Shown here piece after piece: positions 23,234-41,861 of a stretch of DNA of 64,000 bases; the first letter of the stretch is position 1; every line of letters starts with the position of its first letter. Under the pieces are notes generated by a model. The model searched no databases and was not told the DNA's origin. It worked only from the letters and a program-made list of their open reading frames with translations. The stretch comes from Mesorhizobium huakuii. Its GTDB lineage: Bacteria; Pseudomonadota; Alphaproteobacteria; Rhizobiales; Rhizobiaceae. Where the stretch lies: positions 6,134,001-6,198,000 of the forward strand of contig NZ_CP050296.1 in NCBI RefSeq assembly GCF_014189455.1, in the 5' to 3' direction. Both the position numbers and the translations under genes were made by a program.

Positions 23234-23323
23234 GGAGGGATGGCCGAGCGGTTTAAGGCACCGGTCTTGAAAACCGGCGTGGGCGCAAGTTCACCGTGGG
23301 TTCGAATCCCACTCCCTCCGCCA
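23234..23323 (+). tRNA. tRNA-Ser (anticodon TGA)
   Basis: The acceptor arms GGAGGGA (23234-23240) and TCCCTCC (23313-23319) pair fully, followed by discriminator G and encoded CCA. The D-arm has TGGCCGAGCGG, the anticodon stem-loop CCGGTCTTGAAAACCGG gives TGA, a long variable arm follows (GTGGGCGCAAGTTCACC), and the T-arm has GTTCGAATCCC. The long variable arm confirms a class II tRNA. Its last 14 bases are duplicated at 41848-41861, marking it as the integration target of the downstream element. Confidence 0.98.
23310..23323 (+). other. attL: left attachment core in the tRNA 3' end
   Basis: The 14 bases CACTCCCTCCGCCA are the end of the tRNA-Ser acceptor stem plus CCA. An identical copy lies at 41848-41861, 154 bp upstream of the integrase start. 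Flanks differ immediately outside the 14 bases. Confidence 0.85.
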
Positions 23324-23357
23324 TAGGTGTCTGATTTACTTGATTTTATTCACTTTT

Positions 23358-24042
23358 CTAACTCTTACGCACAAATCTACGCATAATCTTTTCTTGGCGC
23401 TGATTCCACCGGCGGAGCAAGGCGCTGAATGGTGAGTCGTTCTGGACGATCGGGATGCAAATATCTTCCATCTCCCGTATCGCGGCGTGTAACAGCGGTC
23501 CAATTTTGTCCTGCGCTGACGGAAGACCCCAAACGGCGGCGTCAATCTCTTTGCGAAAGGCTGGGTCATCACCCAGTTCAACCCGCTCGCCCCTAATGCT
23601 TTCGTAGCGTGTGTAAGCCAAGGCGGTGAACGACCGGAGCGCTTCGTCAACCTTCTCAAAGGGCCGGCTAGCGTTCGGACCGAACAGCGCTCTCATTCGA
23701 AATTTGTAGGAGAAGAAGTCTTTCCAAAAATTACTCTGCGATTTCCACCTGGCAATGGGGACATAGTGCGTGTCGCGCACGCGGACTTCGCCCTCAGATT
23801 CATGATCACGCCTGGGTCGATCCGCGGATCTCTACCGCCGGATATGACATAGGGCTGCGGAGTTCTCTTACTTTCTCTTCGGCCTCATAAAACTGCGCAA
23901 TGACATGTTGGCAGAGTTCGATATCGCGACGCCCTTTCATTTCACGTTTCCAGGCGTGCAGGCCAGCAAATGCTATGTAGGTCCCTCCTCCGGTCGCGAC
24001 GATCGTCGCTATGGTCTGAAGCTTAACTAATAGATCGGCCAT
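23358..24042 (-). pseudogene. Membrane-anchored hypothetical protein, frameshifted
   Basis: ATG 24042 begins MADLLVKLQTIATIVATGGG, an N-terminal membrane helix followed by a soluble helical part (WKREMKGRRDIELCQHVIAQ). That frame stops at 23806. A second frame carries on through DHESEGEVRVRDTHYVPIAR and YKFRMRALFGPN to a stop at 23358. Removing one base near 23815 joins them into a protein of about 228 residues with one membrane segment. I recognise this architecture from uncharacterised proteobacterial proteins but can give no function. It is the first gene inside the element, reading towards the tRNA. Confidence 0.6.
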
Positions 24043-24179
24043 CAGCGTCCCCCGCGACATTTTGCTGGCAAGCAATACCTGCGGTTCTTCCTACTGCCAA
24101 TTGCGACCCCAATTTTTTCCTGCGACTATCTGCAAGTCCACGCGACATGGACGCGACATGTGGGGGCCTAAGAACAACG

Positions 24180-24542
24180 ATGCCAAATCGTCTATTGCGC
24201 AAATTGGGTCGCGCCAGGGTGTCTGATGCTTTCGGCTTCCTTGGAATTATCGCCGCTCTGGGGGCATTGACGATCTCAGGCCAAGCTTCTGGGGCCGACC
24301 TGTGTTCAATATCGCAAGATGAGGCAAACGCCTCATCCAAATGCATCCGATGGTATTTCGCCTGTCGAGGGAGAGTTCTTGGCAAGCCCGATAAGCGATT
24401 TGAGACAATGCCCTACACAACTCGCCTCAGATACGTAGCTCAAGCCCTTTACAAGGTGGCAGAGCAAAACTGCGAGCAATTCGATTATGTGCAGGCAAAG
24501 GCCGCACTCGACGCGAGGCTTGAGGAAATTGGAGGCCAGTGA
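24180..24542 (+). CDS. Secreted hypothetical protein
   Basis: A 120-residue protein from ATG 24180. A basic start (MPNRLLRKLGRARVSDAFGF) is followed by a hydrophobic stretch (LGIIAALGALTISGQASGA), a likely signal peptide with cleavage near SGA. The mature part has four cysteines (LCSIS, KCIRW, FACRG, NCEQF), consistent with two disulfides in the periplasm, and an alanine-rich helical end. An upstream ATG in frame at 24147 is less likely. I recognise no family. It is the first rightward gene in the element. Confidence 0.55.
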   Translation: MPNRLLRKLGRARVSDAFGFLGIIAALGALTISGQASGADLCSISQDEANASSKCIRWYFACRGRVLGKPDKRFETMPYTTRLRYVAQALYKVAEQNCEQFDYVQAKAALDARLEEIGGQ

Positions 24543-24735
24543 GACAAAGCAAAAGCCCGCCGCTGTGAAGGCAGTCTGGAGCCATCGCCGCGGGGTTACG
24601 TTCTCGCAACACCCTCAAAAACATCGCCTTCGCTGCCGTACTCAACTGCAAGTCGTGGGAATAGTTTTGCCAGGCGTCGAGTTCATTCGCCCCAGAATGG
24701 CGCCGGGGTGAGGCTCAGAAAGGCGGCACCTAGGA

Positions 24736-24951
24736 ATGGCTACGACCTCCGCACCAGCTTTGAATTTTGCGATCCTCGCTCTGGCGGCGATCGTTTGGCT
24801 TGCCGGCGCCGCATGCGCTTTCATAGAGCGCAGCCCCAAGTTAGACCGTGCCGCCGGCGTTGCCCTTTACGGTTTCGGCGCCATAATGTTGGTGGGCGGG
24901 ATATATGGCATGCTGTCGGCGATCGTCTGGACACTGCGCGCCATCTTCTGA
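24736..24951 (+). CDS. Small inner-membrane protein
   Basis: A 71-residue protein with two clear hydrophobic helices (NFAILALAAIVWLAGAACAF and ALYGFGAIMLVGGIYGML) joined by a charged loop (IERSPKLDRA). AGGA lies 2-6 bases before ATG 24736, close but plausible. No family is recognised. It is followed on the other strand by a decayed gene. Confidence 0.5.
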   Translation: MATTSAPALNFAILALAAIVWLAGAACAFIERSPKLDRAAGVALYGFGAIMLVGGIYGMLSAIVWTLRAIF

Positions 24952-24954
24952 TCA

Positions 24955-25304: not shown

Positions 25305-25394
25305 TCGCAAACCAGCTTCTCCCTTAAAACAGTTGAGAGCACTTAAGGACTGACCTTCCGATGCGGCAAACAAGCCCGATGCTACATGGGCATT

Positions 25395-25548: not shown

Positions 25549-25642
25549 CGAACAGACGGTTTCGCAGGCCGGCCAGGAGTGCGGTTGCGTACTTAAGATC
25601 ACTCTAATAAAGAGGCTGACCAGACAACAAGGGAATCAACAA

Positions 25643-26068
25643 ATGACCGAAGCCGATACCCGCGCAGCCCAACTAGCCGGGTTAACCGCAGATGTCGTAT
25701 CCGCATATGTGAGCAATAACCCATTGCCAGCCGCCGCTCTGCCGGAGCTAATCGCGTCGGTGCATCTCTCACTATCAGGGCTTAGCCAGCCGTCAGCGCC
25801 GCTAGCCGAAGAGCTTGTGCCCGCGATCAACCCGAAGAAGTCGGTAATGCCCGATTTTATCATCTGCCTCGAAGACGGCAAACGGTTCAAATCTCTGAAG
25901 CGCCATCTACGCGTCGACTTCGGCTTAACGCCGGAAGCCTACCGCGCCAAATGGAACCTGCCGAGGGATTATCCAATGGTCGCGCCGAACTACTCCGACC
26001 GCAGGTCTGCTATGGCAAAGTCCATGGGCCTGGGCCGCAAGTCAGTGCCTGAGATGGGAGCAAAGTAG
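25643..26068 (+). CDS. Ros/MucR-family transcriptional regulator
   Basis: A 141-residue regulator. The central MucR domain is clear: PDFIICLEDGKRFKSLKRHL followed by VDFGLTPEAYRAKWNLP. MucR/Ros proteins are H-NS-like DNA-binding repressors in rhizobia that control exopolysaccharide, motility and virulence or symbiosis genes. The usual CxxC zinc ligand pair reads CLED, so the second cysteine is replaced. Zinc-free variants are known in Mesorhizobium loti and still bind DNA. AAGGGA precedes ATG 25643. Its position inside the element suggests either control of element genes or influence on host genes after transfer. Confidence 0.9.
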   Translation: MTEADTRAAQLAGLTADVVSAYVSNNPLPAAALPELIASVHLSLSGLSQPSAPLAEELVPAINPKKSVMPDFIICLEDGKRFKSLKRHLRVDFGLTPEAYRAKWNLPRDYPMVAPNYSDRRSAMAKSMGLGRKSVPEMGAK

Positions 26069-27718: not shown

Positions 27719-27919
27719 TCAGCGCAGATCCCGCATGATAAATTCATAGATCGTGCCAATTTCCTCGTCGATCTCTCGGCCGGGAATGCCTTCGGTTTCC
27801 GCCGCTCGTTTTGCGTCCGTAGCCATATCGATCACCATGAGGACGGGGTCGATAATCGGACTGTCCGCTAGATGGTCCGATATCCAGTGGTAGAGAAAAT
27901 CACTCCCGCGCTTGCTCAT
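27719..27919 (-). CDS. Small hypothetical protein coupled to the ligase gene
   Basis: A 66-residue protein (MSKRGSDFLYHWISDHLADS, ending in IDEEIGTIYEFIMRDLR). Its ATG at 27919 overlaps the ligase stop (ATGA), and GGGAAG in the ligase end supplies the ribosome-binding site. Translational coupling suggests a joint role with the ligase, but no domain is recognised. Confidence 0.6.
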   Translation of the reverse strand: MSKRGSDFLYHWISDHLADSPIIDPVLMVIDMATDAKRAAETEGIPGREIDEEIGTIYEFIMRDLR

Positions 27920-28773
27920 TCTTCCCGGAAATCCTGCAGTGAGGCGTGCCTCAAATCCTCCTCGCCCCGCAGATGCTTTACACGGCCGATCAGCCCTGGC
28001 TTGACCCACTGCGTCGCCGGCCGCCTCATGCCCTTTGGCGCCGCTCCTGCGTGGTCCTTGACGCGTTTCCAGAGCCGTTCGCGCATTTCCCGGTTCAAGG
28101 TGATGAAGGCGCTGCCGACATAGCGCCCGGTGCCACGCTCCGCCATCAGCGCGAAGGCCGGTTTGCCTGGCTCGCGCTCGACGCCGAGAAGTTCGTATTC
28201 GTCGATGGTATATGCCTTGATCTTCAGCCAGGCCGTCGATTTGCCGCTCCGGTACTTACTGTCTTTGCGCTTCGAGACCATGCCCTCCAGCCCGGCCTTG
28301 TCGACCAGTTCGAAGATCGCCTTGGCATCGCCGGGCAGCGCCTCGCTGAATTGGATGCGGAGCCCGGGCGGAACTATCGCGTATAGCCCAGCCCGGCGGT
28401 CTTTGAGTGGCATATCGCGAAGATCGTATCCGTTCAGGTGCAACAGATCGAAGGCCACGAAATAGAGGTCGTGCTGCCGGCTGGTGATTGCTTTGCGGAG
28501 TGCACGGAAGTCGGACAGGCCAGCCTCATTCGTGACGATCACCTCGCCGTCGAGGATGGCGCTTTTGACGTCGAGATCGCCGGCCGCTTTGGCGAGATCC
28601 CGGTACTTCGACGTCCAGTCGAGGCCGCGGCGGGTAAAGATCCGCACGCCTTCGGCGTCGACGATGACTTGAGTGCGGTAGCCGTCGAACTTGACCTCGT
28701 GAATCCATCCGTCGCCCTCGGGAGGCTTCTCGACCAGGGTAGGAATCAAAGGGTCGATGAACTTCAAACGCAT
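27916..28773 (-). CDS. ATP-dependent DNA ligase, LigD ligase-domain type
   Basis: A 285-residue stand-alone ligase domain of the non-homologous end-joining LigD family. The adenylation lysine is K28 in HEVKFDGYRTQV (motif I, KxDGxR). Motif III (FVAFDLLHLNG), motif IV (LEGMVSKRKDS) and motif V (TAWLKIKAY) follow, then a short OB-fold part (GRYVGSAFI). LigD polymerase and phosphoesterase domains are absent and no ku gene is in the window. Rhizobia carry several such ligases. Here it sits inside the element with a coupled small gene, and may repair or recircularise element DNA. Confidence 0.92.
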   Translation of the reverse strand: MRLKFIDPLIPTLVEKPPEGDGWIHEVKFDGYRTQVIVDAEGVRIFTRRGLDWTSKYRDLAKAAGDLDVKSAILDGEVIVTNEAGLSDFRALRKAITSRQHDLYFVAFDLLHLNGYDLRDMPLKDRRAGLYAIVPPGLRIQFSEALPGDAKAIFELVDKAGLEGMVSKRKDSKYRSGKSTAWLKIKAYTIDEYELLGVEREPGKPAFALMAERGTGRYVGSAFITLNREMRERLWKRVKDHAGAAPKGMRRPATQWVKPGLIGRVKHLRGEEDLRHASLQDFREE

Positions 28774-29186
28774 GCACTGGAACTCGCAAAATGCCGCGAC
28801 TCAATTAGCATGCGCTGAAATAGTTCCTGAAACTTATCTAGGCTGGTGGTCTAAAGGCAAAGCCCGCCGCTCGGAGGGGTACGGGGAGCGACGGGCCTTG
28901 TCGGTTGCCTGTAACTGCGGTGCTTGAGCCGCTCAATGAGGGTGATCCCGAATGGTTAACGGAACGTTAATAGGTCGATGCTCCGCAGGAGCCTCGTCGC
29001 CAGCGCGCGTTTCGGCTGCCCGCCGTCCTACACTGCCGACGCGCCCTGCACGTCCTGGCGCCTGCCTGTGGCCAGCAGCATAGCAGACCACTGCTTTGTT
29101 AAAAACGTACAATCGAATCCCCTTGAAGCCACGATGGAAGCAATTATGATTCCATCGTGTATTTTGGTTGCGTGAGGGCTGCCATT
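28774..29186. other. Spacer with hairpin and relic repeat copy B
   Basis: It contains a near-perfect 11-bp stem (GCCCGCCGCTC 28862-28872 with GAGCGACGGGC 28886-28896) and the dispersed relic repeat copy B. A single TTGTACG site (as CGTACAA, 29106-29112) matches the half-sites described at 34849 and 41721. No gene is supported. Confidence 0.5.
28993..29078 (-). repeat. Dispersed relic repeat, copy B
   Basis: Same block order as copy A: CCAGCGCG, then TCCTACACTGCCGACGC, then CGTCCTGGCGCCTGCCTGTG. The minus strand reads LLATGRRQDVQGASAV before a stop, matching the RLATG end of the relic at 29640-29860. Confidence 0.45.
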
Positions 29187-29378: not shown

Positions 29379-29383
29379 GTCAG

Positions 29384-30097: not shown

Positions 30098-30113
30098 GAC
30101 TTTCAGGCTAAAT

Positions 30114-30565: not shown

Positions 30566-31582
30566 TCAATCGCTGTAAGCAATCCGCCCCTGCGCGAAGT
30601 AGGTAGCCGCATCATTCAGGCGACGGTAGAAAGACAAGACGACCTTTGCAGCCACTAGCGCATTCTGGTCAGTTAGATCCCACACTGCTTCGAAGTTTGG
30701 TGCCAGCATCTCATTTGCGAGTTCGCCCGCCCTGCTCTTCATAAACTTCTCAGTGGGGTCGCCTTTTGGGTAAAGCTGCCCTTCAATTTTAAAGTAATGG
30801 TTCTCTGAGAGGTACTGGTGGAAAGATCGATACTTTGCGCCTAGAAGCGCCCGTTTATGGAGAAAATTTGGTATAATGTTGTGGAGGTGGTCGAAAACAT
30901 CCTCGTTACCGAAAATTTCGACATGTCCCGGCGATTCATATTTTATTTTGCTGAGATTTAGCTGCTCGCTTCGAGGAACGTTCTCGCTCAGGTCCCGAAA
31001 AAGGTGCACATAGCTAAAGCCACCTCGGAAGGGTCGGTCCAAGAATGCCTCTTTCACCCTGCGTTTTGACGCGAGCGTCGCACTCGCCGAACTCCAGGTA
31101 TTCGTGGCAATGATGAAGGCATAAACATCGGCATACTTCTGTTGAAACTGGCCGAAATCCTGCAATTCCCATTCGCCATCGATGACGAGTTTTTCAGTGT
31201 CGCTCGCGCGGTCGTCAGCCTTGTATTCTTCCGTATGATTTGTCGAGAAGAACCGTGGCAGCGGCAGATACCGCTCGTCTATCTCGCCTTCCCAGGGGGT
31301 CATCATGACCTTGCCATCTTTCAGATGGTTCAAGTCGAAATGATACTGCACCCGCACTGTCGGGAATGTGAACAGGTAACGCAGATCGACCGTCCCATCC
31401 AGATACTTGGTCCAGTCTCGATCATTCGCAGTCGTAGCGAGGAACATCGAGCTATCCGGATTGCCATACGGTATCGCGATAGCGACCACGCGCGTCTTCT
31501 GGGAAACTAGGGTAATCACCTGAGGTTCATCCACGTAAACCAAGGTGGCGTCGTATATGGCAGATCTACGATGGATCGGCAT
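30566..31582 (-). CDS. Hypothetical protein, second gene of an unknown two-gene module (DUF6575-like N-terminus)
   Basis: A 338-residue soluble protein. The N-terminal region DATLVYVDEPQVITLVSQKT and the WTKYLDGTVDLRYLF segment resemble DUF6575-type proteins, which are uncharacterised; this resemblance is from memory and only moderate. The rest is charged and mixed alpha/beta, without catalytic motifs that I can name. ATG 31582 shares one base with the stop of the preceding gene, so translation is coupled. DNA here is clearly more AT-rich than the flanking element genes, suggesting recent acquisition as cargo. A strong terminator ends the unit. Confidence 0.7.
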   Translation of the reverse strand: MPIHRRSAIYDATLVYVDEPQVITLVSQKTRVVAIAIPYGNPDSSMFLATTANDRDWTKYLDGTVDLRYLFTFPTVRVQYHFDLNHLKDGKVMMTPWEGEIDERYLPLPRFFSTNHTEEYKADDRASDTEKLVIDGEWELQDFGQFQQKYADVYAFIIATNTWSSASATLASKRRVKEAFLDRPFRGGFSYVHLFRDLSENVPRSEQLNLSKIKYESPGHVEIFGNEDVFDHLHNIIPNFLHKRALLGAKYRSFHQYLSENHYFKIEGQLYPKGDPTEKFMKSRAGELANEMLAPNFEAVWDLTDQNALVAAKVVLSFYRRLNDAATYFAQGRIAYSD

Positions 31583-32070
31583 CAGACCGGCTCGACTTGA
31601 ATGGTAGCCGAGCACGGATCAAAGCTATCATACATCCAAAAATCGATATGCTTGCCTTTGGTTCTGGACATGCCGGCGCCGGTCGGTACCGCTAGCTTCG
31701 CCACGAAGGGCGATCCTGCGTCTCGAATTTTCGGAAGGCTATGCATATTTTTGACATGCGAAAGTGACGTAAAAAGTGAACATGAAGCCCACGAGCATGC
31801 ATCAACTGTCGGTGGTCTCGTCTTGCCCTTTTTCGCGTGTGAGGCGAAGTGCTCCTTCGCTGGGGGATTTGCTCCCACTAGGCGGTATGCTTCGGCTATT
31901 TCTATATCGGCAGCGTCCGCCGGAGGGCATTGCTGCGGCAACATCTCCCAGTACCCCATAGTCCCCCACCTGCTCTCAACTTGAGCGGCGTAGTCCAACG
32001 TCGGACGGAAATCAATCATTGGCTGCGTATTGAGCGGCCTAGACTCTGCCTTTTCTGTGTCTAAGTGCAT
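31582..32070 (-). CDS. Hypothetical protein, first gene of an unknown two-gene module
   Basis: A 162-residue protein from ATG 32070, with GAGGG 7 bases upstream. Notable segments are SRWGTMGYWEMLPQQCPPAD, AYRLVGANPPA and the C-terminal KGKHIDFWMYDSFDPCSATI. There is no signal peptide or membrane helix and no known family comes to mind. Its stop overlaps the start of the larger partner at 31582. A small-plus-large coupled pair, with its own terminator and foreign base composition in the cargo zone of an integrative element, fits a toxin-antitoxin or phage-defence module, but the sequence alone does not show this. Confidence 0.65.
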   Translation of the reverse strand: MHLDTEKAESRPLNTQPMIDFRPTLDYAAQVESRWGTMGYWEMLPQQCPPADAADIEIAEAYRLVGANPPAKEHFASHAKKGKTRPPTVDACSWASCSLFTSLSHVKNMHSLPKIRDAGSPFVAKLAVPTGAGMSRTKGKHIDFWMYDSFDPCSATIQVEPV

Positions 32071-33073
32071 AAAAAGCCCTCATGCGTGCGCAATCGGATC
32101 CACATCATCATTTGATCACCCGCCCCGCAGCACGCGCCAGATATCGGACCAGTAGGCCGTTATCAGGGACGCCAGGGCCGCTGCCGCCATGCCGGTGACT
32201 AGCTCCGGCGGCCAATCATTCAGTCGCTCCGGCGGCCGTAGCGCCGCATGAGGTCGGTGTCGCCGGACATCGGACGGAGTTCCCGTACTTCCGCGTGTTG
32301 GCGATGAAGCGCGATCTTTTCGAGACCAAGGGCATGCCGCTTGATGGCGGCAAGGGCTTTTTCGCCGACCGCCCGGAGTGGATCCGATTGCTCGCGCGCC
32401 GTCACGAGAGCGCTATGGGCGTTGGCAAGCCGGAGCTGGTAGGCCTCGTCACTCTCGCCTTTGCGATCGACGTTAAGCCGCCTCGCCAGCGCGTAGCGCA
32501 ACCGTTCGCGGTGGTCGGCCTCGGTTTCGCCGTTGGTTAGTTGCAAACGCAGGGCGCCGGCCACTGCGGCCCAACGACGAGCACTGTAGGCATCGTCACC
32601 CTCGTTCGCGCGCCGCTCGACATGCATGGCGCGGCATTCGGCGAGCACAGCTGCGCTCACGGTCGTGCCACGCTCTTTCTTGCCGTTCGGTGCGACCCCG
32701 GCATTCGAGGCAACCACGGACCATAGCCTGGCTTCGAACGCCTCGTCGGTTTCGCCCGTGCGGACAGGAACCACGATGCTGGCATGCCGGGTGCCGATCG
32801 TGTCGAGTACGGCCCTGCGCAGGATGTCCATGTCGATCACCAGGTCACGGCGGTCGTTTCCAAGCGCCTGCTGGTTCATCCCCTCGATGGCAAGCGCGTG
32901 CTGCTCAAGCACCAGTGCGCTGTGACAGACGCCGGCCAGCAGCTTGTACATGGTCTGCAAAGCCTCTGCCGCGGGGCCGTAGTGCTCAGCCCTGGCCGCC
33001 GCGGCTTGCCTCTCCAGCGCCGCCTTGCCGGCGGCTGCCTGGGCTTTCGCAAGCACGGCCCGCGCCGGCGCTA

Positions 33074-34115
33074 GAGCACGTCCCGCGATCGATGAATCGA
33101 TTGTGATGTGACGTCGGGCTGCATGGGTGATTCAACATCCCCTTTGATGAGGTGGATGATGGCAAGAGCACTGAGCGGCGACCTTCGATCCCGGGTCTTG
33201 AAGGCTTCGGACGCGGGCATGTCGGCACGGCAGGCGGCGGCGCGGTTCGGCGTCGGCATATCGAGTGCGATCCGGTGGATCGCACGGGCGAAGATCGGCG
33301 AGCGGATGCCTCGCCCGCAAGGCCGCCGACGCGCGTCCAGCCTTGATGCCCACGAAGCCTTCATCGTCGGGCTGATCGATGAGCGCAAGGACATCACGCT
33401 GAACGAAATGGTGGAACGGCTGGGGGACGAGCGGTCGGTACGGATCAGCCGCAGCGCCTTGAGCGCATGGCTTCGCGGCCACGGGTGGACGTTCAAAAAA
33501 AGTCCGCACACGCACTGGAGCAGGACCGCCCCGACATCCTGAAGCGCCGTCGCGCCTGGTTCGACGGCCAGCTCGATCTCGATCCAGCGAAGCTCGTCTT
33601 CATTGATGAGACCGGGCTATCGACCAAGATGGCCCGTCTGCGGGGACGTGCGCCGCGCGGTGAGCGCTGCCGGGCCGGCGTGCCGCACGGCCATTGGAAG
33701 ACCACCACCTTCACCGGCGCGTTACGGCTGACAGGAATGACCGCTCCGTTCGTCTACGACGGCGCCATGAACGGCAACGTGTTCCTGGCTTATGTTGAGC
33801 AGGTTCTGGTTCCGACCCTGTCGGAGGGCGACGTCGTCATCATGGACAATTTGCCGGCGCACAAGGCGGCCGGCGTGCGCGAGGCGATCGAGACGACCGG
33901 CTCGAGGCTCATGTTCCTGCCGCCCTACAGCCCCGACTTCAATCCGATCGAAAACGCCTTCTCAAAACTCAAGGCTCTTATGCGCGCCAAAGCCGAGAGA
34001 ACAATCACAGCCCTGTGGAACGCCGTCGGATCGCTCGTTGACCTCTTCACCCCAGCCGAATGCCAGAACTACTTCAAGGCCGCAGGCTATGACCCGGATT
34101 AAACCGGACGTGCTC
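33074..34115 (+). mobile_element. IS630-family insertion sequence
   Basis: 1,042 bp bounded by 10-bp perfect terminal inverted repeats, GAGCACGTCC (33074-33083) and GGACGTGCTC (34106-34115), flanked by TA on both sides (33072-33073 and 34116-34117). TA target duplication is the IS630 hallmark. It carries a frameshifted transposase and splits an element gene without leaving other changes. Confidence 0.95.
33156..34102 (+). CDS. IS630 transposase, two overlapping frames joined by -1 frameshift
   Basis: The first frame (33156-33542) holds the helix-turn-helix DNA-binding part (GMSARQAAARFGVGISSAIR). The second (33467-34102) holds the DDE catalytic domain: LVFIDETGLSTKMARL, VVIMDNLPAHKA and PPYSPDFNPIENAFSKLK supply D, D and E. 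A run of seven A (33495-33501) lies in the overlap. A -1 slip there gives GWTFKKSAHALEQDRPDILK, the usual family sequence, so programmed frameshifting is likely, as in other IS630 members. A homopolymer sequencing error would look the same. Confidence 0.92.
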
Positions 34116-34576
34116 TAGCCCCGCTTCAAGGGTCTTGACCAGCTGCTCGGCGTCTCGCAGACCGCTGTGCAGCGCGTCGAGATCGCCGCCGTTCAGAACG
34201 ACATCTGCCCGGCTGCCGTCCAGCTCTGCGAGGCGCTGTCTTGTTTTCGCGACGTCGGTTTCGAGCCGGTCGACCACGGCCTGCCGCCGCGCCACCTCAT
34301 CACCCAACGCCGTGGCGTCCACGGCCGGCGTGGTCTCGGCCGGCCGCAGCAGCTCGTCCAGCGGGGTCACCTCGCCCGGGCCATAGGTCTTGAATTCGGT
34401 CGCGGGCTGCTCGATAGGCCCCGATATGCCGCGCTGATCGCCATCGGCCGGCTGCGCAGGCGCTCCCGCGCCGGCGGTGGCTGAATTGTCGGCAACGCGC
34501 CCGCTTTTGCTTTCCTGAAGACGAGCGAAAACGGCTCGCTCTTCTGCGTCGGCCCCGGCTTCGGTGGTCCTGGCAT

Positions 34577-34768
34577 TCATGGGGTCACTCTTCGTCTGGT
34601 TGCGAGGTAAGCGGCAATGCGGGCAAGGTCCTGAGTAAACCACCGCGGGGCATGTTCGGCCAAGGCGTCGGCGGGCTTGCCGCCGGGGGAACGTGCGTCG
34701 TCGAGCGCCTTGTCAGCAACGCCCGGCTGCGGGGCGACCTGTGCGACGCTTTTTACGATGACAGCCAT
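34577..34768 (-). CDS. Small hypothetical element protein
   Basis: A 63-residue basic protein (MAVIVKSVAQVAPQPGVADK; end WFTQDLARIAAYLATRRRVTP). Its stop overlaps the start of the interrupted 438-residue gene (ATGA), showing an operon. A direct-repeat operator candidate lies 81-99 bp upstream of its start. No family recognised. Confidence 0.6.
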   Translation of the reverse strand: MAVIVKSVAQVAPQPGVADKALDDARSPGGKPADALAEHAPRWFTQDLARIAAYLATRRRVTP

Positions 34769-34968: not shown

Positions 34969-35613
34969 TCACCAGTTATCCCGGGGATCATCCAACGGTA
35001 GAGGGTCGCCGGCACTTTCATCTTGCCAACCTTGCGGCTCTTCGGCAGCGGGCTCTGGCAGCTGGCGCCTGGCTGCTATGCGATCGGAGAGGCGTACAGC
35101 AGGGTCGGCAGGCGCCGGGCCTTGCGCCGCGGCATCGGGCTTGGCGAAGTCCTTCAGCATCTCATTCAGCGCCAGTGCGGCCTCGCGAACGGTTGCTTCG
35201 CCGGCGGCTTTGGCCTCGACCTGCTGGCGCTGTGCTTCCGCAACCTTGGCCCGGTCGGCGGCGGCCAGCTCGGCCGCGCGTCGCTCGCGGCCCCGATCGA
35301 GCGCCTCACGGAAGTCTGCATAGGCCAACCGCCACCGAGAGACCGTGCGGATAGTGCATCCCAGCTCGGCAGCGATCTCGGCCAATGTAGCGCCGCGCTC
35401 GGCGAGGTTCGCGGCCTCTGGGCGGTAGGTCGGCTGCCGGCCTTGGTTACCGGGGGCGAAATAACCTTTACCAGTGTTGTTGATGGGCTTCGCGCGCGTG
35501 GGCGCGCGAGCGCGCCCGCCTTTTGGGTGTGCTTTAATCCTATAGACTTTACGGTCCGCTGGCTGGCCTCGCGGTGCCGCTGTCGGTGGCTTGTCGCGCG
35601 TGGCCATTTTCAC
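34969..35613 (-). CDS. HTH protein resembling phage terminase small subunit
   Basis: A 214-residue protein. After a basic, disordered N-terminus (KAHPKGGRARAPTRAKPINN) comes a helix-turn-helix, YRPEAANLAERGATLAEIAA then ELGCTIRTVSRWRLAYADFR, of the type found in small terminase subunits and similar phage DNA-recognition proteins. A long charged alpha-helix follows (RGRERRAAELAAADRAKVAE), then an acidic proline-rich tail. Satellites often encode a small terminase that redirects helper packaging, so this is a functional candidate. A plain transcriptional regulator is the alternative. Its start overlaps the preceding gene (ATGA, 35610-35613). Confidence 0.6.
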   Translation of the reverse strand: MKMATRDKPPTAAPRGQPADRKVYRIKAHPKGGRARAPTRAKPINNTGKGYFAPGNQGRQPTYRPEAANLAERGATLAEIAAELGCTIRTVSRWRLAYADFREALDRGRERRAAELAAADRAKVAEAQRQQVEAKAAGEATVREAALALNEMLKDFAKPDAAAQGPAPADPAVRLSDRIAARRQLPEPAAEEPQGWQDESAGDPLPLDDPRDNW

Positions 35614-35828
35614 CGGCCGGTGGGCTTGGCCGGGGTAGCCGGCGCGCCCTGGAGCCGCCGTTCCACGTCCTTGAGTAACAGCCGAAGCTTCAGATCCATC
35701 TCCGCCATGTGCGCACTTTCGTCGGGCTTGGCCGGGGCCGCCGTTGCGTTCCGAAGCTGCTGCTCTAAATCGCGAAGCAGCAACTCCAGCGGGCTGGCAT
35801 CGTCGTCGCCAGGAGGGGACGTAGCCAT
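35610..35828 (-). CDS. Small hypothetical element protein with internal repeat
   Basis: A 72-residue protein from ATG 35828. Two related halves are visible: LELLLRDLEQQLRNATAAPA and LRLLLKDVERRLQGAPATPA, each ending in a proline/alanine linker with AKP. It is probably a helical oligomerising protein. It sits 5 bases after the preceding stop and overlaps the HTH gene start. The open frame extends to 35900, but the shorter start fits the operon spacing. Confidence 0.55.
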   Translation of the reverse strand: MATSPPGDDDASPLELLLRDLEQQLRNATAAPAKPDESAHMAEMDLKLRLLLKDVERRLQGAPATPAKPTGR

Positions 35829-35832
35829 CCTT

Positions 35833-36108
35833 TCACTCTGCCCGCGGCTGTGGACCGACCGTGTCGGCGCGATACGGCTCAGGGCGACGTGGCTCAGCAT
35901 GACCCAGCGCTCGGAGCCGCTTCGGCACCTTTGGCGCGGGCTCTGGCTTGCGAACCTTGGCGTTTAGGAGGGCTAGCATATGTTTCAGGTAGGTGACGCA
36001 ATCCATATCGTTCAGTCCTGTTTTCGAGCTGTCATCGGCCGTTCGGTTTCGCCGGGGGACTGCCTTGTTTTTCGCAACCGTCAGGTTGTATTGCCGTGGT
36101 GTAGCCAT
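35833..36108 (-). CDS. Small basic hypothetical element protein
   Basis: A 91-residue basic protein (MATPRQYNLTVAKNKAVPRR start; MDCVTYLKHMLALLNAKVRK middle). It is the first gene after the iteron-like array (36127-36245), reading away from the RepA-like gene in the same direction. No family recognised. The basic content suggests nucleic-acid binding. Confidence 0.55.
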   Translation of the reverse strand: MATPRQYNLTVAKNKAVPRRNRTADDSSKTGLNDMDCVTYLKHMLALLNAKVRKPEPAPKVPKRLRALGHAEPRRPEPYRADTVGPQPRAE

Positions 36109-36126
36109 CGACGGCGTGCGATTGGT

Positions 36127-36245
36127 GCGCTATGGAAAAAATGGCAATGCGCGCCTGCTGCGCCATTGCTTTTTACTAGCGCCAATCGGTCAATAGAGCA
36201 GACGACTTTGCGCTATTGATGCGCGATTGAAAAATTCAATAGCGC
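36127..36245. repeat. Iteron-like array, candidate replication origin
   Basis: Five copies of GCGCTATTGA or its complement occur within 119 bp with at most one mismatch: 36127-36136 (+), 36190-36199 (-), 36210-36219 (+), 36221-36230 (+) and 36236-36245 (-). Weaker copies lie at 36143 and 36160. Copies at 36208-36219 and 36236-36247 form a perfect 12-bp inverted repeat. The array fills the spacer directly after the RepA-like ATPase gene, with prim-pol adjacent, as expected for an element replication origin or a strong operator region. Confidence 0.6.
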
Positions 36246-36262
36246 AACACCTTGGGTTGCAA

Positions 36263-37564
36263 TCACGCATTTTCAGGCTCCGCCAAAACACGGCTGACAA
36301 ACAGCCCTTTCAAGGTCTTTCGCGTCACGGGGCTCTTGTAATCCTCGACGCGCACGACGCCATCCTTTATCCACTTGCCGACGATCTGGCGCGCGTCGGA
36401 AGCCGATTTGTTCTGCACATGCATTCCGAACGCGACCGATACGCAGCGATCGGTAGCCCGCGATGCGTCGGTGTAGCGCTCGCCGTTCTCGAGGCCGTCG
36501 CGTATTTCCATCAAAATGCGGTGGCAGGTGACGCCATCCATGCCGGCCATTAGGTCCGGCGGCGTCCACGGCACTATAGCCTGCACATCGTCGCCGTTGG
36601 GGTATTCGTGCGTTCCGTTGCCGATGTTCTGGCTGATCAGCTTGAACCACTGCGCACTCCGCCCTTGCCTGGCGATGTTGACCTTCGCCGGGTCGACACG
36701 GACATACTGCTTGCGATCATCTTCGGGGATGTGGAACGCTTTCGCTTCCTCTGCTGACATATGCGTCATCGTGTAGCCAAGTCGGATCGCATCCTTAAGC
36801 GCTGAAGCGCCCCGCCCCCGGTTGGCGTTGCCGGGGTCTGGCGTCCCCTTGGCCATATGATGAGGCAAGTCGATCGCGATATTGAGACGCGAGGCCATGT
36901 CGGTCAGAGTCTGAACGACGGCGTCCATGTGGTCGTTGCTGTTCTCTTCGACGCCGTGGATTTTCTTCAGCGGGTCGAGGATGACCAGATCGATTCTGTA
37001 TTTGGTGACCAACTGCTCCACCGTCGGGGCCAGGTTCGAAAGCGCCGGCTGCCTCGTACCGGGGTCGATGACCATAAGCTTGCCTGCGGACAGACCAGGC
37101 GTCGCCAGATGCAGGCGGTCCCCAATCTCTTCGTCCGTTATCTTGTGGTGCATCCTGGCTGCCGCGACGCGTCGCTTCAGCTCGTCCGCGTCATCTTCGA
37201 AACACATCAGCAGCACGTTGCAGCGCTTGTGGACACGCTCTTCGGTCAATCGCCGCCCGCTCGCCAGTGCAAGCGCCTGCGCGATCCGGAGCGTTGTCTT
37301 GCCGGTGGCGCCGTCGGCGAACAAAGAGCTGACGAAAGTGCGCGCGAAGACGTTGCCGAGGAGAAACTCGCGCGGCGGTATCTTGGTCGCGTCGATGCCA
37401 GCAGCGCTCCACACCTCGATATCCAGAGCCTTCGGCGGCTCGGGCGGCGCCGCCTGCTGCTTCTGACCGCCGTCAAGCTTGTTTGACATCAACTGCCTAA
37501 GCAGTTCCATCGCGGCGCCCTTGACCTCTTGGTCTGGCTGCACCGCTCCCTTAGCGATTATCAT
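36263..37564 (-). CDS. RepA-like AAA/RecA-fold ATPase (replicative helicase type)
   Basis: A 433-residue ATPase of the plasmid RepA/phage helicase-loader group (AAA_25 type). The Walker A is FADGATGKTTLRIAQALALA and the Walker B region is RIDLVILDPLKKIHG. The downstream LPHHMAKGTP segment and the GRGASALKDAIRLGYTM motif are typical of RSF1010 RepA-like hexameric helicases. The C-terminal part contains a winged-helix-like stretch (ARQIVGKWIKDGVVRVEDY). ATG 37564 is preceded by AGAGAG; a TTG at 37573 is possible. It overlaps the prim-pol end and is followed by the iteron-like array. Confidence 0.85.
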   Translation of the reverse strand: MIIAKGAVQPDQEVKGAAMELLRQLMSNKLDGGQKQQAAPPEPPKALDIEVWSAAGIDATKIPPREFLLGNVFARTFVSSLFADGATGKTTLRIAQALALASGRRLTEERVHKRCNVLLMCFEDDADELKRRVAAARMHHKITDEEIGDRLHLATPGLSAGKLMVIDPGTRQPALSNLAPTVEQLVTKYRIDLVILDPLKKIHGVEENSNDHMDAVVQTLTDMASRLNIAIDLPHHMAKGTPDPGNANRGRGASALKDAIRLGYTMTHMSAEEAKAFHIPEDDRKQYVRVDPAKVNIARQGRSAQWFKLISQNIGNGTHEYPNGDDVQAIVPWTPPDLMAGMDGVTCHRILMEIRDGLENGERYTDASRATDRCVSVAFGMHVQNKSASDARQIVGKWIKDGVVRVEDYKSPVTRKTLKGLFVSRVLAEPENA

Positions 37565-38729
37565 CACGCCCAACTCTCTTTCTGGCTACTTCCGTGACCA
37601 GCTCCACCAAAGTGCCAGCCAAGAGATCGACAACATCGATTTGCCGGGCTCCGATCAGCTTCTGCAGTTTCTCCGCGAGGGCGCTGGCATCGCCCGGCTG
37701 CAGGCTCGCCGGTAGATGCAGCGTGTTTTCCTGCCAGTCGACAATGGCCGGCGCACCGTTGGACGCCACGGTAAGGCAGCAGGATGCCCCGCTGCGGCTG
37801 CTTTTGCGTAACCACGGCACCGGGCTGATCGGCGTGCGGATGCCGCCGCCTATCTCGCCGCTCTCGGCCATCTCGTATAGACGCGCCAGCGTGTGGCCAT
37901 CGATGTCCATGTCGTGCGTCAGGTCGTAGACCCGGACCATCTGTCCGGACAGGCTGCCACCACCAGCACCACCAGGTGCCTCGCGCCAGCCGAGATCCTT
38001 GAATGCGGCTTCCGACACGTCTTGCGCCTTGAACAGGTCGGCTTTCGACAGTAGCGGCAGTTCGGCGCGGGGTGCCGTCAGCGGCGAGTAGTCCTCAACC
38101 CAGCGGTAGGACTTCAGGACTTTACCCGTCGCCGTCTCGACCGTGTGTGCACCGAAAGCGCCGAAGTACCTTTTCGGCTGCCTGTACGTGCCGTCTTCGC
38201 GCCATCTGTACTCGCCGCCGCCGCCAAATATTTCAACCTGGTGCGTGTCGACGCCAGGGTCATCCGGATCATCGCCAGGGGCTATCCACCGCCTGTTCGG
38301 CAGTCGGTAGATATCATCTGCGTCTTCGCCGACGCGGAAGAACCACGCTTCCTTAAGCCCGGATCCAAGGCGCACCGGAGCATCGTATAAAGCCGGTACC
38401 GCTTCCAGCACCGGCCGCGCTACGTTCTCGATGTCGGGATGGTCGGTATCAAAGTCGAGCACACCAATGCCGTCCAGCCGCAGCGCGACCGACCGGGGCG
38501 GCATCCACCAACCTTGCTCATAGCGCTCGGTCTTTCTGTTCCAGCGCTTCGCCGGCCCACCCTTGTCGACGATGAATTGCGGCTTGCGAAGCATACCCCG
38601 CAGCGTTCTGTCGGTTGGGGTCTTGGCCGGCCAGCCGGGCGTCGAACACACTTTGTCGACCCCGAAAAACGGCGTGAAGTCGTTGCGCAGACACTGGCCC
38701 GCTGTCTCAAGGAGTTCTTCGTCGGTCAT
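37551..38729 (-). CDS. Prim-pol type DNA primase/polymerase
   Basis: A 392-residue bifunctional primase-polymerase. Prim-pol signatures are seen: the catalytic DxD in GIGVLDFDTDHPDI, the GSGLKEAWFF segment with its glycine-rich turn, and DTHQVEIFGGGGEYR, which supplies the third acidic residue and the nucleotide-binding patch. The C-terminal half is helical and may contact the helicase. It overlaps the genes before (ATGA at 38726-38729) and after it, forming a replication cassette with the RepA-like ATPase. Confidence 0.82.
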   Translation of the reverse strand: MTDEELLETAGQCLRNDFTPFFGVDKVCSTPGWPAKTPTDRTLRGMLRKPQFIVDKGGPAKRWNRKTERYEQGWWMPPRSVALRLDGIGVLDFDTDHPDIENVARPVLEAVPALYDAPVRLGSGLKEAWFFRVGEDADDIYRLPNRRWIAPGDDPDDPGVDTHQVEIFGGGGEYRWREDGTYRQPKRYFGAFGAHTVETATGKVLKSYRWVEDYSPLTAPRAELPLLSKADLFKAQDVSEAAFKDLGWREAPGGAGGGSLSGQMVRVYDLTHDMDIDGHTLARLYEMAESGEIGGGIRTPISPVPWLRKSSRSGASCCLTVASNGAPAIVDWQENTLHLPASLQPGDASALAEKLQKLIGARQIDVVDLLAGTLVELVTEVARKRVGRDDNR

Positions 38730-39244
38730 TGGATGCCCCCTTGCGGCTTCTCGCAGATCAGGAGGACCTGACGCCCCGGCGCTAGCGCTTTGATTGTTTC
38801 GACCCACTGGGCTTCCTGCTTCGGTCCGGTGTCGACCAGAAACACATGTTCGCCTCTGGCCGCGGCGATTGCGGCGACAACATAAAGTTCGGGAGCTTGG
38901 GAAGATTGAACGACAATATTAGCGGCCATTTTCAAGGCCCGCCGCAGCGATGCTCGGTGGAAGGCACCGGGGCCAGATGCTCCAGAGGCGAGGTCTTCAG
39001 CCAGCGCGATGACAGGCCTGCCTGTGGGCAGCCTGAACGGCTGTCCCCATGGCGGCAGCATTGCCAACACGACACCGTGGTCGCGCACGGCGGTCAGGAT
39101 CGCACCGAAGCGGGTGTCGGCGCCTTGCGTGGCGATGCCTGCGGTCAGCCCTTGGTGAAAGGCGGCAGTGCCGTCATGAGCGAAGATGAATACGCCGCGC
39201 GGCGCCTTGTTATTTTTTGCGGGATTTGATCGGACGTTCAACAT
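38726..39244 (-). CDS. Hypothetical protein of the replication cassette
   Basis: A 172-residue protein with the segments GVFIFAHDGTAAFHQGLTAG, RPVIALAEDLASGASGPGAF and ANIVVQSSQAPELYVVAAIA. The alternating beta-alpha pattern hints at a Rossmann-like or Toprim-like fold, but the acidic residues of Toprim (E...DxD) are not found. Its stop overlaps the prim-pol start, so it is part of the replication operon. Function unknown. Confidence 0.6.
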   Translation of the reverse strand: MLNVRSNPAKNNKAPRGVFIFAHDGTAAFHQGLTAGIATQGADTRFGAILTAVRDHGVVLAMLPPWGQPFRLPTGRPVIALAEDLASGASGPGAFHRASLRRALKMAANIVVQSSQAPELYVVAAIAAARGEHVFLVDTGPKQEAQWVETIKALAPGRQVLLICEKPQGGIQ

Positions 39245-39386: not shown

Positions 39387-39581
39387 TCATGCCGCGAAAG
39401 CGTCGCGCGCTTCGATGCGCGCTTGCTGCCAAGCCGCTATATCCCGCTCCAGCCACCCGACTGATTTGGCCGACAGTTTGACCTGTTTCGGGAACGTTCC
39501 TTCTTTGATGCGCGCGTAGATCGTAGAGCGTGGCAGCCCCGTAACCCGTTCAACTTCATGTCGCCTGAGAATTGTCTGCAT
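39387..39581 (-). CDS. AlpA-family DNA-binding regulator
   Basis: A 64-residue winged-helix protein: MQTILRRHEVERVTGLPRST then IYARIKEGTFPKQVKLSAKS, ending GWLERDIAAWQQARIEAR. This is the AlpA/excisionase-like pattern. P4-type satellites and CP4-57 use AlpA to switch on integrase or excision genes. GATGAGG precedes ATG 39581. It is transcribed divergently from the zinc-ribbon gene across a 104-bp spacer that has repeated sites. It is a likely master regulator of the element. Confidence 0.88.
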   Translation of the reverse strand: MQTILRRHEVERVTGLPRSTIYARIKEGTFPKQVKLSAKSVGWLERDIAAWQQARIEARDAFAA

Positions 39582-39653
39582 GGCCTCATCTCTTTCGTGG
39601 TTTGCCTTGGCCTTGACTAGACACGTAACGCAGGGTAATTGCACGGCTGTTAT

Positions 39654-39673
39654 CGTTAAAATTGCCGTTAAAA
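39654..39673. promoter_or_regulatory. Candidate operator in the AlpA divergent spacer
   Basis: CGTTAAAA occurs twice, at 39654-39661 and 39666-39673, 12 bp apart on the same face of the helix, in the spacer between alpA-like (leftward) and the 39686 gene (rightward). It is an AT-rich tract in GC-rich surroundings and likely covers one or both promoters. Confidence 0.4.
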
Positions 39674-39685
39674 CGAAGCTTCGAT

Positions 39686-40447
39686 ATGACAGCGAAACAG
39701 GCAACAGTCCGCACCGTCCAGCTCTGGCGTGACACGGCCGGGTACGAGATCAAGGATTACGGCCATCCGCCATCCGACATGGCCTCTCTAGGCCCTTCCG
39801 GCAGGTGCATCGAAGGCAGGTCAGCGAAGGTGGTTCCAGTCGTCTATGGCATCGCGCCTGGTAAGACCGGAGAAGCGTGGAGAAGGGCGTCGCGCAAGCT
39901 TCGCCGCGTTAAATCCCTTGATGATCTATGCCGCTTCATGACGGAGTTCGGGCCGATCGACCAAGCGGCAGGTATGTTGCCAATTGGCGCTTTCTTCAAT
40001 CCCTCCTGTGGCAGCGACCACGCAGGCCACGTCGAGCTACCCCACGCGCAATCACTCCCCCAGGTCTTTGCAGATGGCTACATTCGTGACATCGCTGCGC
40101 TCGTGGACTACAGCGCGAGCGACGACAGCGAGGGGTTTTTGTCGGCGATAAGCGGCACGCTGGCAACTCGCGCTGTCTTGCGGCCAATGTCGGGAGCGCT
40201 TTGGGTCACCGAACTGCCGTCCATCCTCGCTCTTCTAAAGTATGACATGTGGTGCAGTTTCGGCGAAGGCCGGTCTGTACCTTCTGCACGGCGCTTATGC
40301 GCTAATTGTGGGACAACAATGCATGTCGGTGACGCGCGAAAGCGCGGCGGGAAGCCCGTTACCGCCCGCTTCTGCAGCAACAAGTGTCGCGTCGGATCCC
40401 ACCTACGCCAGAAGCGCATCGAGGCGCGCCGTCTCGCCGGATTCTGA
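39686..40447 (+). CDS. Hypothetical protein with C-terminal zinc ribbon
   Basis: A 253-residue protein. The C-terminus carries LCANCGTTMHVG, then ARFCSNKCRVGSHLRQK, a CxxC...CxxxC zinc-binding module followed by a basic tail that suits DNA or RNA binding. The N-terminal two-thirds is of mixed fold without a recognised domain. The ATG at 39686 follows an AT-rich spacer. It is the only rightward gene near the right end of the element and converges with the integrase gene. Similar zinc-ribbon proteins occur next to integrases in alphaproteobacterial elements, role unknown. Confidence 0.6.
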   Translation: MTAKQATVRTVQLWRDTAGYEIKDYGHPPSDMASLGPSGRCIEGRSAKVVPVVYGIAPGKTGEAWRRASRKLRRVKSLDDLCRFMTEFGPIDQAAGMLPIGAFFNPSCGSDHAGHVELPHAQSLPQVFADGYIRDIAALVDYSASDDSEGFLSAISGTLATRAVLRPMSGALWVTELPSILALLKYDMWCSFGEGRSVPSARRLCANCGTTMHVGDARKRGGKPVTARFCSNKCRVGSHLRQKRIEARRLAGF

Positions 40448-40461
40448 CCTTCTGCCGTCTC

Positions 40462-41694
40462 TCAAGCCCGCGCCTTGATAGGCGTAACGTTGCCCGACGC
40501 CGCCGACTTCACCGTGCTGCAGAAAGCGGCCCAGTCGGCCATAAGCCGGCGGCGCTTCTCCATCATGTCGCCGCGGCGATAGGCAGCTTCGGTCTTGTCG
40601 CTGACAGTGTGCGCCAGCGCCATTTCAAGCAGTTCGTTCGGGTATGCCGTCTGCTCGGCGGCCCAGTCGCGGAACGTGCTGCGGAAGCCGTGCGCGGTCA
40701 GGTCAGCGCGTTCCATCCGGCGGAGCGTCATCAGCAACGCCATGTTCGAAAGCGGCTTGCCGCCCTTCTCGCCGATGAACACGGAATCGTTCCCCTTCTC
40801 GCGAGGCAGGCTCTCGAGGATTTCGAGAGCGCGATCGGACAGCGGAACGCGGTGTTCCTTGCCGGCCTTCATGCGGTCGCCGGGGATGGTCCACAGCGCG
40901 TTCTCGGTGTCGATCTCACTCCAGCGAGCGCCGACGACTTCGCCGGTTCGAGTGGCCGTCAAGATGGCGAACTCAAGCGCCTTGGGGCTGACGCCTTCCA
41001 TCGGCCGCAATGTGTTCACGAACTCGCCGATCTCTGGATAGGGCAGCGCGGCGTGATGCTTCACCTTGGCAACCTTGCTGCGGGCCGGCAGCAACTTGTC
41101 GAGATGGCCCCGCCACCGGGCCGGGTTCTCGCCCTGGCGGTAGCCGCGCGCCGTCGCCCAATCGAGAATGCTCTCGATGCGTCCCCTCACCCGCGTTGCG
41201 GTCTCAGGCTTTGTGGTCCAGATGGCCTCCAGCGCCTTCAACACCAGCGCCGTGTCGACGCGCGAGACTGCGAAACTCCCGAACTGAGGATAAGCGTAGG
41301 CCTCCAGCGTGGCCTTCCACTGAGCAGCATGCTTGATGTTTTTCCACCCCGAGCGATGCGCCTTGATATAGGCCTCGGCCGATTCCTTAAAGGTCAGCAC
41401 GGTTGCCGACGCCGCCAGCTTCTCCAGTCGCTCAGCCTTGCGCTGCTCGATCGGGTCGTCGGCATCGAGGAGCTTTAGCCGCGCCTCCCCTGCCCGTTCC
41501 CGCGCCAGCTTCAACGTCACGGTGTTGACAGAGCCCAGGCCCATCTTGCGCGGCCGGCCGGCGAGCATATAGCGGAAGATCCAGCTCTTGGCGCCGCCGG
41601 AGGAAACCTGGAGGTAAAGGCCCATGCCGTCGGCATAAAGGCCGGGCTTGGTCTTTGCGTTTACGGCGGCGACGGACAGGCGGTTGATTTGCAT
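40462..41694 (-). CDS. int: P4-type tyrosine integrase
   Basis: A 410-residue tyrosine recombinase with an N-terminal DUF4102 arm-binding domain (KTKPGLYADGMGLYLQVSSG; GLGSVNTVTLKLARERAGEA), a core-binding domain and a catalytic domain. The catalytic set is intact: R249 (TATRTGEVVGARW), H335 and R338 (HGFRSTFRDW), H362 and the nucleophile Y372 (HTVSDKTEAAYRRGD). ATG 41694 has GGGAGAG upstream; the open frame extends to 41727 without support. This family commonly targets tRNA 3' ends, matching the duplicated tRNA-Ser tail 154 bp beyond its start. An operator-like repeat overlaps its upstream region. Confidence 0.96.
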   Translation of the reverse strand: MQINRLSVAAVNAKTKPGLYADGMGLYLQVSSGGAKSWIFRYMLAGRPRKMGLGSVNTVTLKLARERAGEARLKLLDADDPIEQRKAERLEKLAASATVLTFKESAEAYIKAHRSGWKNIKHAAQWKATLEAYAYPQFGSFAVSRVDTALVLKALEAIWTTKPETATRVRGRIESILDWATARGYRQGENPARWRGHLDKLLPARSKVAKVKHHAALPYPEIGEFVNTLRPMEGVSPKALEFAILTATRTGEVVGARWSEIDTENALWTIPGDRMKAGKEHRVPLSDRALEILESLPREKGNDSVFIGEKGGKPLSNMALLMTLRRMERADLTAHGFRSTFRDWAAEQTAYPNELLEMALAHTVSDKTEAAYRRGDMMEKRRRLMADWAAFCSTVKSAASGNVTPIKARA

Positions 41695-41708
41695 TCGAAC
41701 TCTCCCTG

Positions 41709-41727
41709 CGAACAAGTCTACGTACAA
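41709..41727. promoter_or_regulatory. Candidate operator upstream of integrase
   Basis: On the minus strand TTGTACG-TAGAC-TTGTTCG lies 15-33 bp upstream of the integrase ATG. It matches the 34849-34867 site in 13 of 14 half-site bases with the same 5-base spacer. A protein bound here would block or position polymerase at the integrase promoter. Confidence 0.55.
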
Positions 41728-41847
41728 CTTGATCCGGGACTTTGCAAGACACCCTTAGACGCTATGAGCGCTCAAATGCATACTTTGCAAGGGTTTTGGC
41801 CGGGGTATGGGAAGCTCTCGGAACGCCTTGGATTAGGCGGAGACGGA

Positions 41848-41861
41848 CACTCCCTCCGCCA
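41848..41861 (+). other. attR: right attachment core
   Basis: CACTCCCTCCGCCA, identical to the last 14 bases of tRNA-Ser at 23310-23323. It defines the right edge of the element next to the integrase. Confidence 0.85.

Follow-up and report, generated by a model that had tools for sequence, protein, structure and literature searches.

Among phage satellites, capsid-forming phage-inducible chromosomal islands (cfPICIs) have their own capsid and packaging genes, and P4 carries hijacking genes of the Psu, Sid and delta type and is not known to carry a small terminase subunit (TerS). Gram-negative phage-inducible chromosomal islands (PICIs) are described in PMC6092414 (PMC, PubMed Central) as having an integrase, AlpA, a primase/initiator followed by an origin of replication (ori), in some cases terS, genes that interfere with phages, and their own attachment (att) sites; the same paper describes their induction and packaging as phage dependent. 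P4-like satellites have hotspots for anti-phage cargo, according to PMC9122126. The window analyzed here, a 64-kb stretch of the Mesorhizobium huakuii chromosome (contig NZ_CP050296.1), contains an element integrated at tRNA-Ser(TGA) that is probably a PICI-type phage satellite. No phage satellite of rhizobia was found described in the open-access literature searched (PMC, with subscription papers and preprints lying outside it). The proposal in a first-pass annotation of the window, that the element could belong to a new group in Mesorhizobium, gains from the relatives reported below.

Reading inwards from the right-hand att site (attR), and mostly on the minus strand, the element carries genes for an integrase, a possible zinc-finger protein (on the opposite strand), AlpA, a 172-amino-acid (aa) protein, a protein resembling primase-polymerases (prim-pol) and a RepA-type ATPase. 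An iteron region, two small genes, a gene for a helix-turn-helix (HTH) protein, a gene split by an insertion sequence (IS) of the IS630 type, and the A and B genes of a PD-T4-10 defense system follow (Table 1). The left-hand remainder is a sparse stretch with an ATP-dependent DNA ligase and a Ros/MucR regulator. The features of PICIs that can be recognized are thus the integrase with its specific att site, AlpA, the primase and replication genes followed by an ori, and the lack of capsid, tail and large terminase (TerL) genes; as for terS, found in some PICIs, the HTH protein of the window is weakly TerS-like, and a true small terminase occupies the corresponding place in relatives. The element is named PICI-like, and not a proven PICI, because these features match but the TerS of the window is weak, and induction and packaging lie beyond sequence. 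The first-pass annotation had proposed a P4- or PICI-like satellite: the satellite interpretation is supported by a PICI-like set (int, alpA, pri, rep, ori and terS-like), and no P4-specific protein family was found.

Ends and integration site

The 14-bp 3′ end of tRNA-Ser(TGA) has exactly one further copy in the window, at 41848 to 41861, and the two repeats enclose 18,552 bp with a GC content of 0.60 (0.54 to 0.67 per kb). The attR core (41848) is upstream of the integrase, 121 bp from its start (41727), and the chance of a 14-bp match within those 120 bp is ∼4e−7 if equal base frequencies are assumed. The site without the element was seen in another Mesorhizobium genome, G078, in which a 100% identical tRNA-Ser is joined directly to right-flank DNA of ∼94% identity, the left side being colinear with window positions 17119 to 23272. 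Both results agree with the 18.5-kb extent first proposed from the repeat. The G078 site is not fully empty, as a different insertion of ∼13 kb (L063 6098-19178) lies in the 5′ half of the tRNA gene; it duplicates the first 39 bp of that gene, and one of its open reading frames (ORFs) reads like an integrase. The two ends of tRNA-Ser(TGA) are sites for two types of element, the window element at the 3′ end and the G078 insertion at the 5′ end. A further genome, G066, carries another element whose integrase is 41% identical to that of the window; it shares the 14-bp core at its end and abuts the same right flank. An AlpA-like match (58%) was identified beside its integrase. Judged from these comparisons, the integration site of the window element is real.

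Further relatives of the integrase, with 43 to 48% identity, were identified in G050, G144b, G093, and G089, and each lay beside a short tRNA-Ser-type match of 14 to 16 bp. Only that of G050 had both element ends within the analyzed DNA (tRNA-Ser(CGA), 16-bp repeat, 11.7 kb). Relatives with other integrases are flanked by tRNA repeats of 47 to 50 bp. Because elements of the same clade show matches of 14 to 16 bp, the short core looks like a trait of the integrase clade of the window and not a false repeat.

Relatives in Mesorhizobium and the replication origin

The RepA-type ATPase was searched against 146 genomes of the genus, including that of the window. Matches at 1e−3 were found in 25, and five besides the window's own genome matched at E < 1e−100: G048 (70% identity), G144 (63%), and G135, G103, and G128 (50 to 51%). 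Both ends were located for the elements of G048 (tRNA-Lys, 50-bp repeat, 16.4 kb), G128 (tRNA-Val, 48-bp repeat, 18.6 kb), and G144 (tRNA-Gln, 47-bp repeat, 22.4 kb), and in G103 and G135 the integrase-side tRNA end alone was seen. Relatives with a conserved core order, a search suggested by the first-pass annotation, therefore exist at other tRNA genes. G144, a genome with two elements of the group, retains prim-pol, RepA, ori and HTH in the order of the window, and a gene for a ProQ/FinO protein lies just upstream of its prim-pol. The prim-pol-like protein had no tblastn match in G103, G128, or G135, and in G048 a short C-terminal match only.

The integrase, the AlpA-like regulator and the RepA-like ATPase that had been named from the sequence were all recovered by family profiles (Table 1). 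Two other assignments fared less well. The prim-pol has distant similarity to a phage "DNA primase/polymerase" (24.7% identity; 1e−12) and no Pfam or PHROG match, and its structure model is of low confidence (mean predicted local distance difference test score, 46.6). The supposed zinc-ribbon gene is weaker than claimed, its match to PF10782 falling below the cut-off.

Straight after the RepA stop codon, the same layout was identified in all six RepA elements. An inverted iteron comes first, followed by a pair of direct iterons 11 bp from each other and a second inverted copy; after a central block come one direct and one inverted iteron. The 10-bp word of the iterons varies with the lineage, with CAATAGCGCA in the window, CAATGACGCA in G048, CAAATGCGCA in G144, CAATTGCGCA in G128, and CAATGGCGCA in both G103 and G135, and within one element the words mostly change in concert. 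In five of the six ori regions the number of repeated 7-mers lay above all 1,000 dinucleotide shuffles (0/1,000 reached the observed count). The iteron-like array first noted in the window is, on these counts, the most degenerate of the six and would not stand alone, because 62 of 1,000 shuffles reach its observed count, although the same place is significant in each of the five relatives.

Small terminase and small-terminase-like genes downstream of RepA

Downstream of RepA, a protein of the HTH/phrog_309 family is encoded in the window, in G048 (6.5e−7), and, by homology, in G144. In the same place, G128 and G103 encode a small terminase (phrog_51; 1.8e−18 and 5.9e−18, respectively), as does G135 by homology. 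The G128 protein also matched Terminase_2 (5.7e−11) in a Pfam scan that covered G128 and not G103. A tblastn search with it against phage records returned 184 matches at 1e−2 (best, 8e−11), and most of the 20 listed were annotated as small terminase. Small ORFs lie between RepA and the HTH/TerS gene in the window and in G135. The model of the window protein has an HTH followed by a 58-residue helix, and its top viral fold match was a putative terminase small subunit (E value, 2.9e−3), with none below 1e−3. The first-pass description of this protein as resembling a small terminase is strengthened because one family replaces the other in the corresponding place. No other line of evidence speaks as strongly as this replacement for the window HTH protein acting as a small terminase, a role that it could have.

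TerS of the G128 type was found at 1e−8 in 20 of the 146 genus genomes, the window's own genome not among them. At 1e−20 it was found in 16 of these 146 and in 2 of 297 genomes of the family, neither of the two in Mesorhizobium. Besides the loci of G128, G103, and G135, 13 of the 23 listed places were analyzed. In 11 of the 13 loci, a G128-cluster serine recombinase (nine assigned by cluster and two by tblastn) is found close to TerS, in the position at which TerL would be expected in a prophage. An integrase match lies within ∼6 kb of TerS in 10 (one of them, in G046, weak), and no integrase match was found in the analyzed stretch of the G020, G047, and G079 loci. Replication modules vary among these loci and include D5_N/DUF5906 (G053 and three homologues), toprim with a VapE-like protein (G093), DUF3987 (G057), and AAA_25 (G046).

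In 6 of the 13 loci (L088, L089, L091, L092, L094, and L100), the terS start codon is preceded at a distance of a few bases by a conserved block that matches CGGTAWNNTGAY. Near variants were seen in other TerS loci, and one further match was found elsewhere, in L096. The block is a possible shared promoter or operator.

Virion and conjugation genes and alternative explanations

The five delimited elements (window, G048, G144, G128, and G050) contain 84 called ORFs. PHROG and Pfam scans at 1e−3 covered 57 ORFs, made up of 54 of these and 3 more from the window; the other 30 of the 84, comprising integrases, TerS/HTH, RepA, prim-pol, recombinases, restriction genes, ligase, MucR, IS and similar genes, were scanned singly or assigned by homology. 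No family of capsid, portal, tail, TerL, relaxase or type IV secretion system (T4SS) proteins was recognized in the 57-ORF scans of the five elements. Named matches were to regulators, DNA-binding proteins, an invertase/resolvase, transposases, an endonuclease, domains of unknown function, and YgjP-like and MutS-type domains, with one extra match to a terminase small subunit (phrog_57). TerL was also sought at genome level with PF03354 in 15 element-bearing genomes and with PF03237 in 14 and in the window's own genome, G046, G047, and G079 being left out. Matches were found in 3 of the 15 and in 12 of the 14 plus the own genome, respectively, and none lay inside an element. The PF03237 matches of the own genome fall in three separate stretches (G000:C1:477686-479470) and are perhaps a gene transfer agent or a prophage remnant.

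Across the ORF scans and the genome search, the delimited elements therefore yielded neither the TerL, portal, capsid and tail genes of a prophage nor the capsid and packaging genes of a cfPICI. The first-pass annotation had reported these genes absent from the window element, together with relaxase and T4SS genes, and homologous islands with structural or conjugation genes, a finding it had named as speaking against a satellite, were not recognized among the five. No relaxase or T4SS Pfam family, as expected of an integrative and conjugative element (ICE) or integrative mobilizable element, was present in the scanned ORFs, although an unrecognized relaxase or an element with oriT only would escape such a scan. 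Likewise, no Psu, Sid or delta family was found in Pfam and PHROG scans of the window genes and the 57 ORFs, from which diverged versions would escape.

These results bear on three other explanations. It is unlikely that the element is an integrative mobilizable or self-replicating island that conjugates with the help of an ICE or plasmid and whose HTH protein serves as a regulator. Alphaproteobacterial plasmids do carry RepA-type ATPases of this superfamily along with toprim partners, and sister elements carry serine recombinases, but the scanned ORFs yielded no relaxase or T4SS family, and the sister lineage has a true small terminase at the equivalent position; both points argue against this explanation. 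Somewhat less likely still is a decayed prophage, that is, a temperate phage which lost its structural genes and kept integrase, replication genes and terS. The integrase, replication and TerS families are common to phages and the window copy carries an IS insertion; however, with elements at tRNA-Ser, -Lys, -Val, and -Gln that are all bounded by exact repeats, lack TerL and resemble one another in their compact order, and with the recombinase near TerS in 11 of the 13 further loci, independent decay to the same set is unlikely. An ordinary immobile defense island with a relic integrase is very improbable, as the IS insertion, the degenerate iterons and the low coding density at 23.3 to 30 kb are set against att repeats that are exact, integrase and replication genes whose frames are open, and relatives that have the core order in common while lying in other tRNA genes.

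Several observations weigh against a satellite. The copy in the window may have partly decayed or been partly inactivated, given that IS630 splits a gene shared with G048 and that the iterons are degenerate and fall short of significance on their own. The phrog_309 and fold matches of the HTH protein are weak by themselves. Confidence was also lowered slightly by AlpA, which had no tblastn match in any of the five RepA relatives, and by the number of TerS loci with an integrase match, which is 10 of the 13 rather than 11. With these points included, a PICI-type phage satellite is still the account of the window element that is held with fair confidence, and the best reading of the element together with its relatives would be a PICI-like, TerS-carrying satellite group of Mesorhizobium.

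Cargo, insertion sequence and neighboring genes

Coordinates of the features are collected in Table 1. According to PMC9519451, PD-T4-10 consists of two overlapping ORFs forming a toxin-antitoxin system with abortive defense against T-even phages. The A and B ORFs of the element likewise overlap, at 31582 to 31615. Other defense genes are a type I restriction-modification system inside the G128 element and, beside the G103 element, a ZacA-ZacB-ZacC set (PADLOC names; L047 6157-12106). Ligase genes 69 to 77% identical to that of the window were seen in the TerS loci of G119 and G020 (L094 530-1417 and L093 13947-14782).

The two gene pieces on either side of the IS630-type insertion match successive parts of one 497-aa protein of G048, for which no Pfam or PHROG family and few database matches, all in Mesorhizobium, were found. 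The insertion is probably recent, because it is 100% identical to the copy on contig C3 and is flanked by pieces of one gene.

Table 1. Features of the window element and its attachment sites (positions in the 64-kb window)
Feature	Position	Strand	Basis
tRNA-Ser(TGA), integration target	23234..23323	+	ARAGORN; 100% identical in G078 beside right flank
attL, 14-bp core	23310..23323	+	Exact repeat of tRNA 3′ end
Left-end gene	23358..23780	-	No Pfam match
Ros/MucR regulator (cargo)	25643..26068	+	PF05443, 1.4e−47
ATP-dependent DNA ligase (cargo)	27916..28773	-	PF01068, 4.3e−30
PD-T4-10_B, toxin-type defense protein	30566..31615	-	PADLOC, 1.3e−26
PD-T4-10_A, antitoxin-type partner	31582..32070	-	PADLOC, 2.1e−6
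C-terminal part of interrupted gene	32220..33056	-	32%, 1.8e−27 to 497-aa G048 protein
IS630-type insertion	33071..34119	+	DDE_3 ORF 33467-34102; 100% identical to copy on contig C3 of own genome
N-terminal part of interrupted gene	34074..34643	-	35%, 2.4e−8 to 497-aa G048 protein
TerS-like protein, HTH and long helix	34969..35613	-	HTH_23, 3.7e−7; phrog_309 "terminase small subunit," 1.9e−10
Small gene	35610..35900	-	No Pfam or PHROG match
Small gene	35833..36108	-	No Pfam match
Ori-like iteron region directly after RepA	36115..36262	-	Best word CAATAGCGCA; layout common to 6/6 RepA elements
RepA-type ATPase/helicase	36263..37573	-	AAA_25, 5.5e−31; 50 to 70% in five other Mesorhizobium genomes
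Prim-pol-like replication protein	37551..38807	-	55% to G144; distant phage similarity
172-aa gene	38726..39244	-	No Pfam or PHROG match
AlpA-type regulator	39387..39704	-	PF05930, 3.6e−18
Possible zinc-finger protein (weak)	39662..40447	+	PF10782, 18.4 bits versus cut-off of 19; low coding score
Tyrosine integrase	40462..41727	-	Phage_int_M, 7.4e−31; Arm-DNA-bind_3, 2.8e−18; catalytic domain
attR, 14-bp core	41848..41861	+	Exact repeat; same core at attR in G066

A 46-nucleotide repeat occurs both outside and inside the element, at 22847 to 22892, 29035 to 29080, and 29669 to 29714, with 70 to 85% identity to the reference copy. To the right of attR, positions 42306 to 50991 hold a low-GC cluster of glycan-type genes (GC content of 0.54 at 42 to 51 kb) encoding a GT25 glycosyltransferase, an acyltransferase, a hexapeptide protein, two large glycosyltransferases, a sulfotransferase and a DegT aminotransferase. 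This stretch looks like a surface-glycan locus.

Proposed life cycle and implications

While integrated in tRNA-Ser(TGA), the element would be quiescent, and it could then be excised by its own integrase, with AlpA as activator or excision factor. The prim-pol/RepA pair would replicate it from the iteron ori after repA, and the HTH protein, as a small terminase, would redirect the large terminase of a helper phage to the satellite DNA, allowing it to be packaged into helper phage particles. Between such rounds, the host may benefit from the abortive-infection PD-T4-10 pair.

A broader proposal is made tentatively, as a possible outcome rather than a probable one. The elements could be one lineage of TerS-hijacking satellites, largely confined to Mesorhizobium and assembled from cassettes that can be exchanged: integrases of at least three clades that differ in tRNA target, replication modules of four or more kinds, TerS-type proteins of two families, and changing defense cargo. 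The iteron geometry of the ori would stay fixed while the 10-bp word changes in concert within an element. If so, satellites would have private replication addresses, several could reside in one host, as the two of G144 do, and a private packaging address might lie beside terS.

If the group is real, PICI-like biology would extend to nitrogen-fixing symbionts. Five delimited elements, plus others with one known end, would be available for work on excision and packaging. The ori regions, with fixed geometry and swapped iteron words, would form a natural series for studies of RepA specificity and satellite coexistence. The PD-T4-10 and type I restriction-modification genes inside elements, and ZacABC beside one, would then suggest a carrier of anti-phage genes between strains.

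Comparison with known satellites

As a probable satellite, the window element resembles the phage-inducible chromosomal minimalist islands (PICMIs) of Vibrionaceae (PMC10803314) in being small, integrative and without capsid-remodelling genes. It is set apart from them by a TerS-like gene, larger cargo and a different host group. P4-like satellites (PMC8628076 and PMC9122126) share with it an AlpA/Vis-type regulator and a replication module; the window element differs in carrying a TerS-like gene and in having no match to the Psu, Sid or delta families. The closest likeness is to Gram-negative PICIs such as EcCICFT073 and PmCI172, which, according to PMC6092414, similarly have an integrase at one end, AlpA, a primase and initiator with an ori after them, genes for resistance to phages and their own att sites, and likewise lack virion genes. 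In contrast to these, the host of the element is alphaproteobacterial, its prim-pol-like and RepA-type proteins are separate, its att core at tRNA-Ser is short, its cargo includes PD-T4-10, and the Mesorhizobium group has two TerS-type families.

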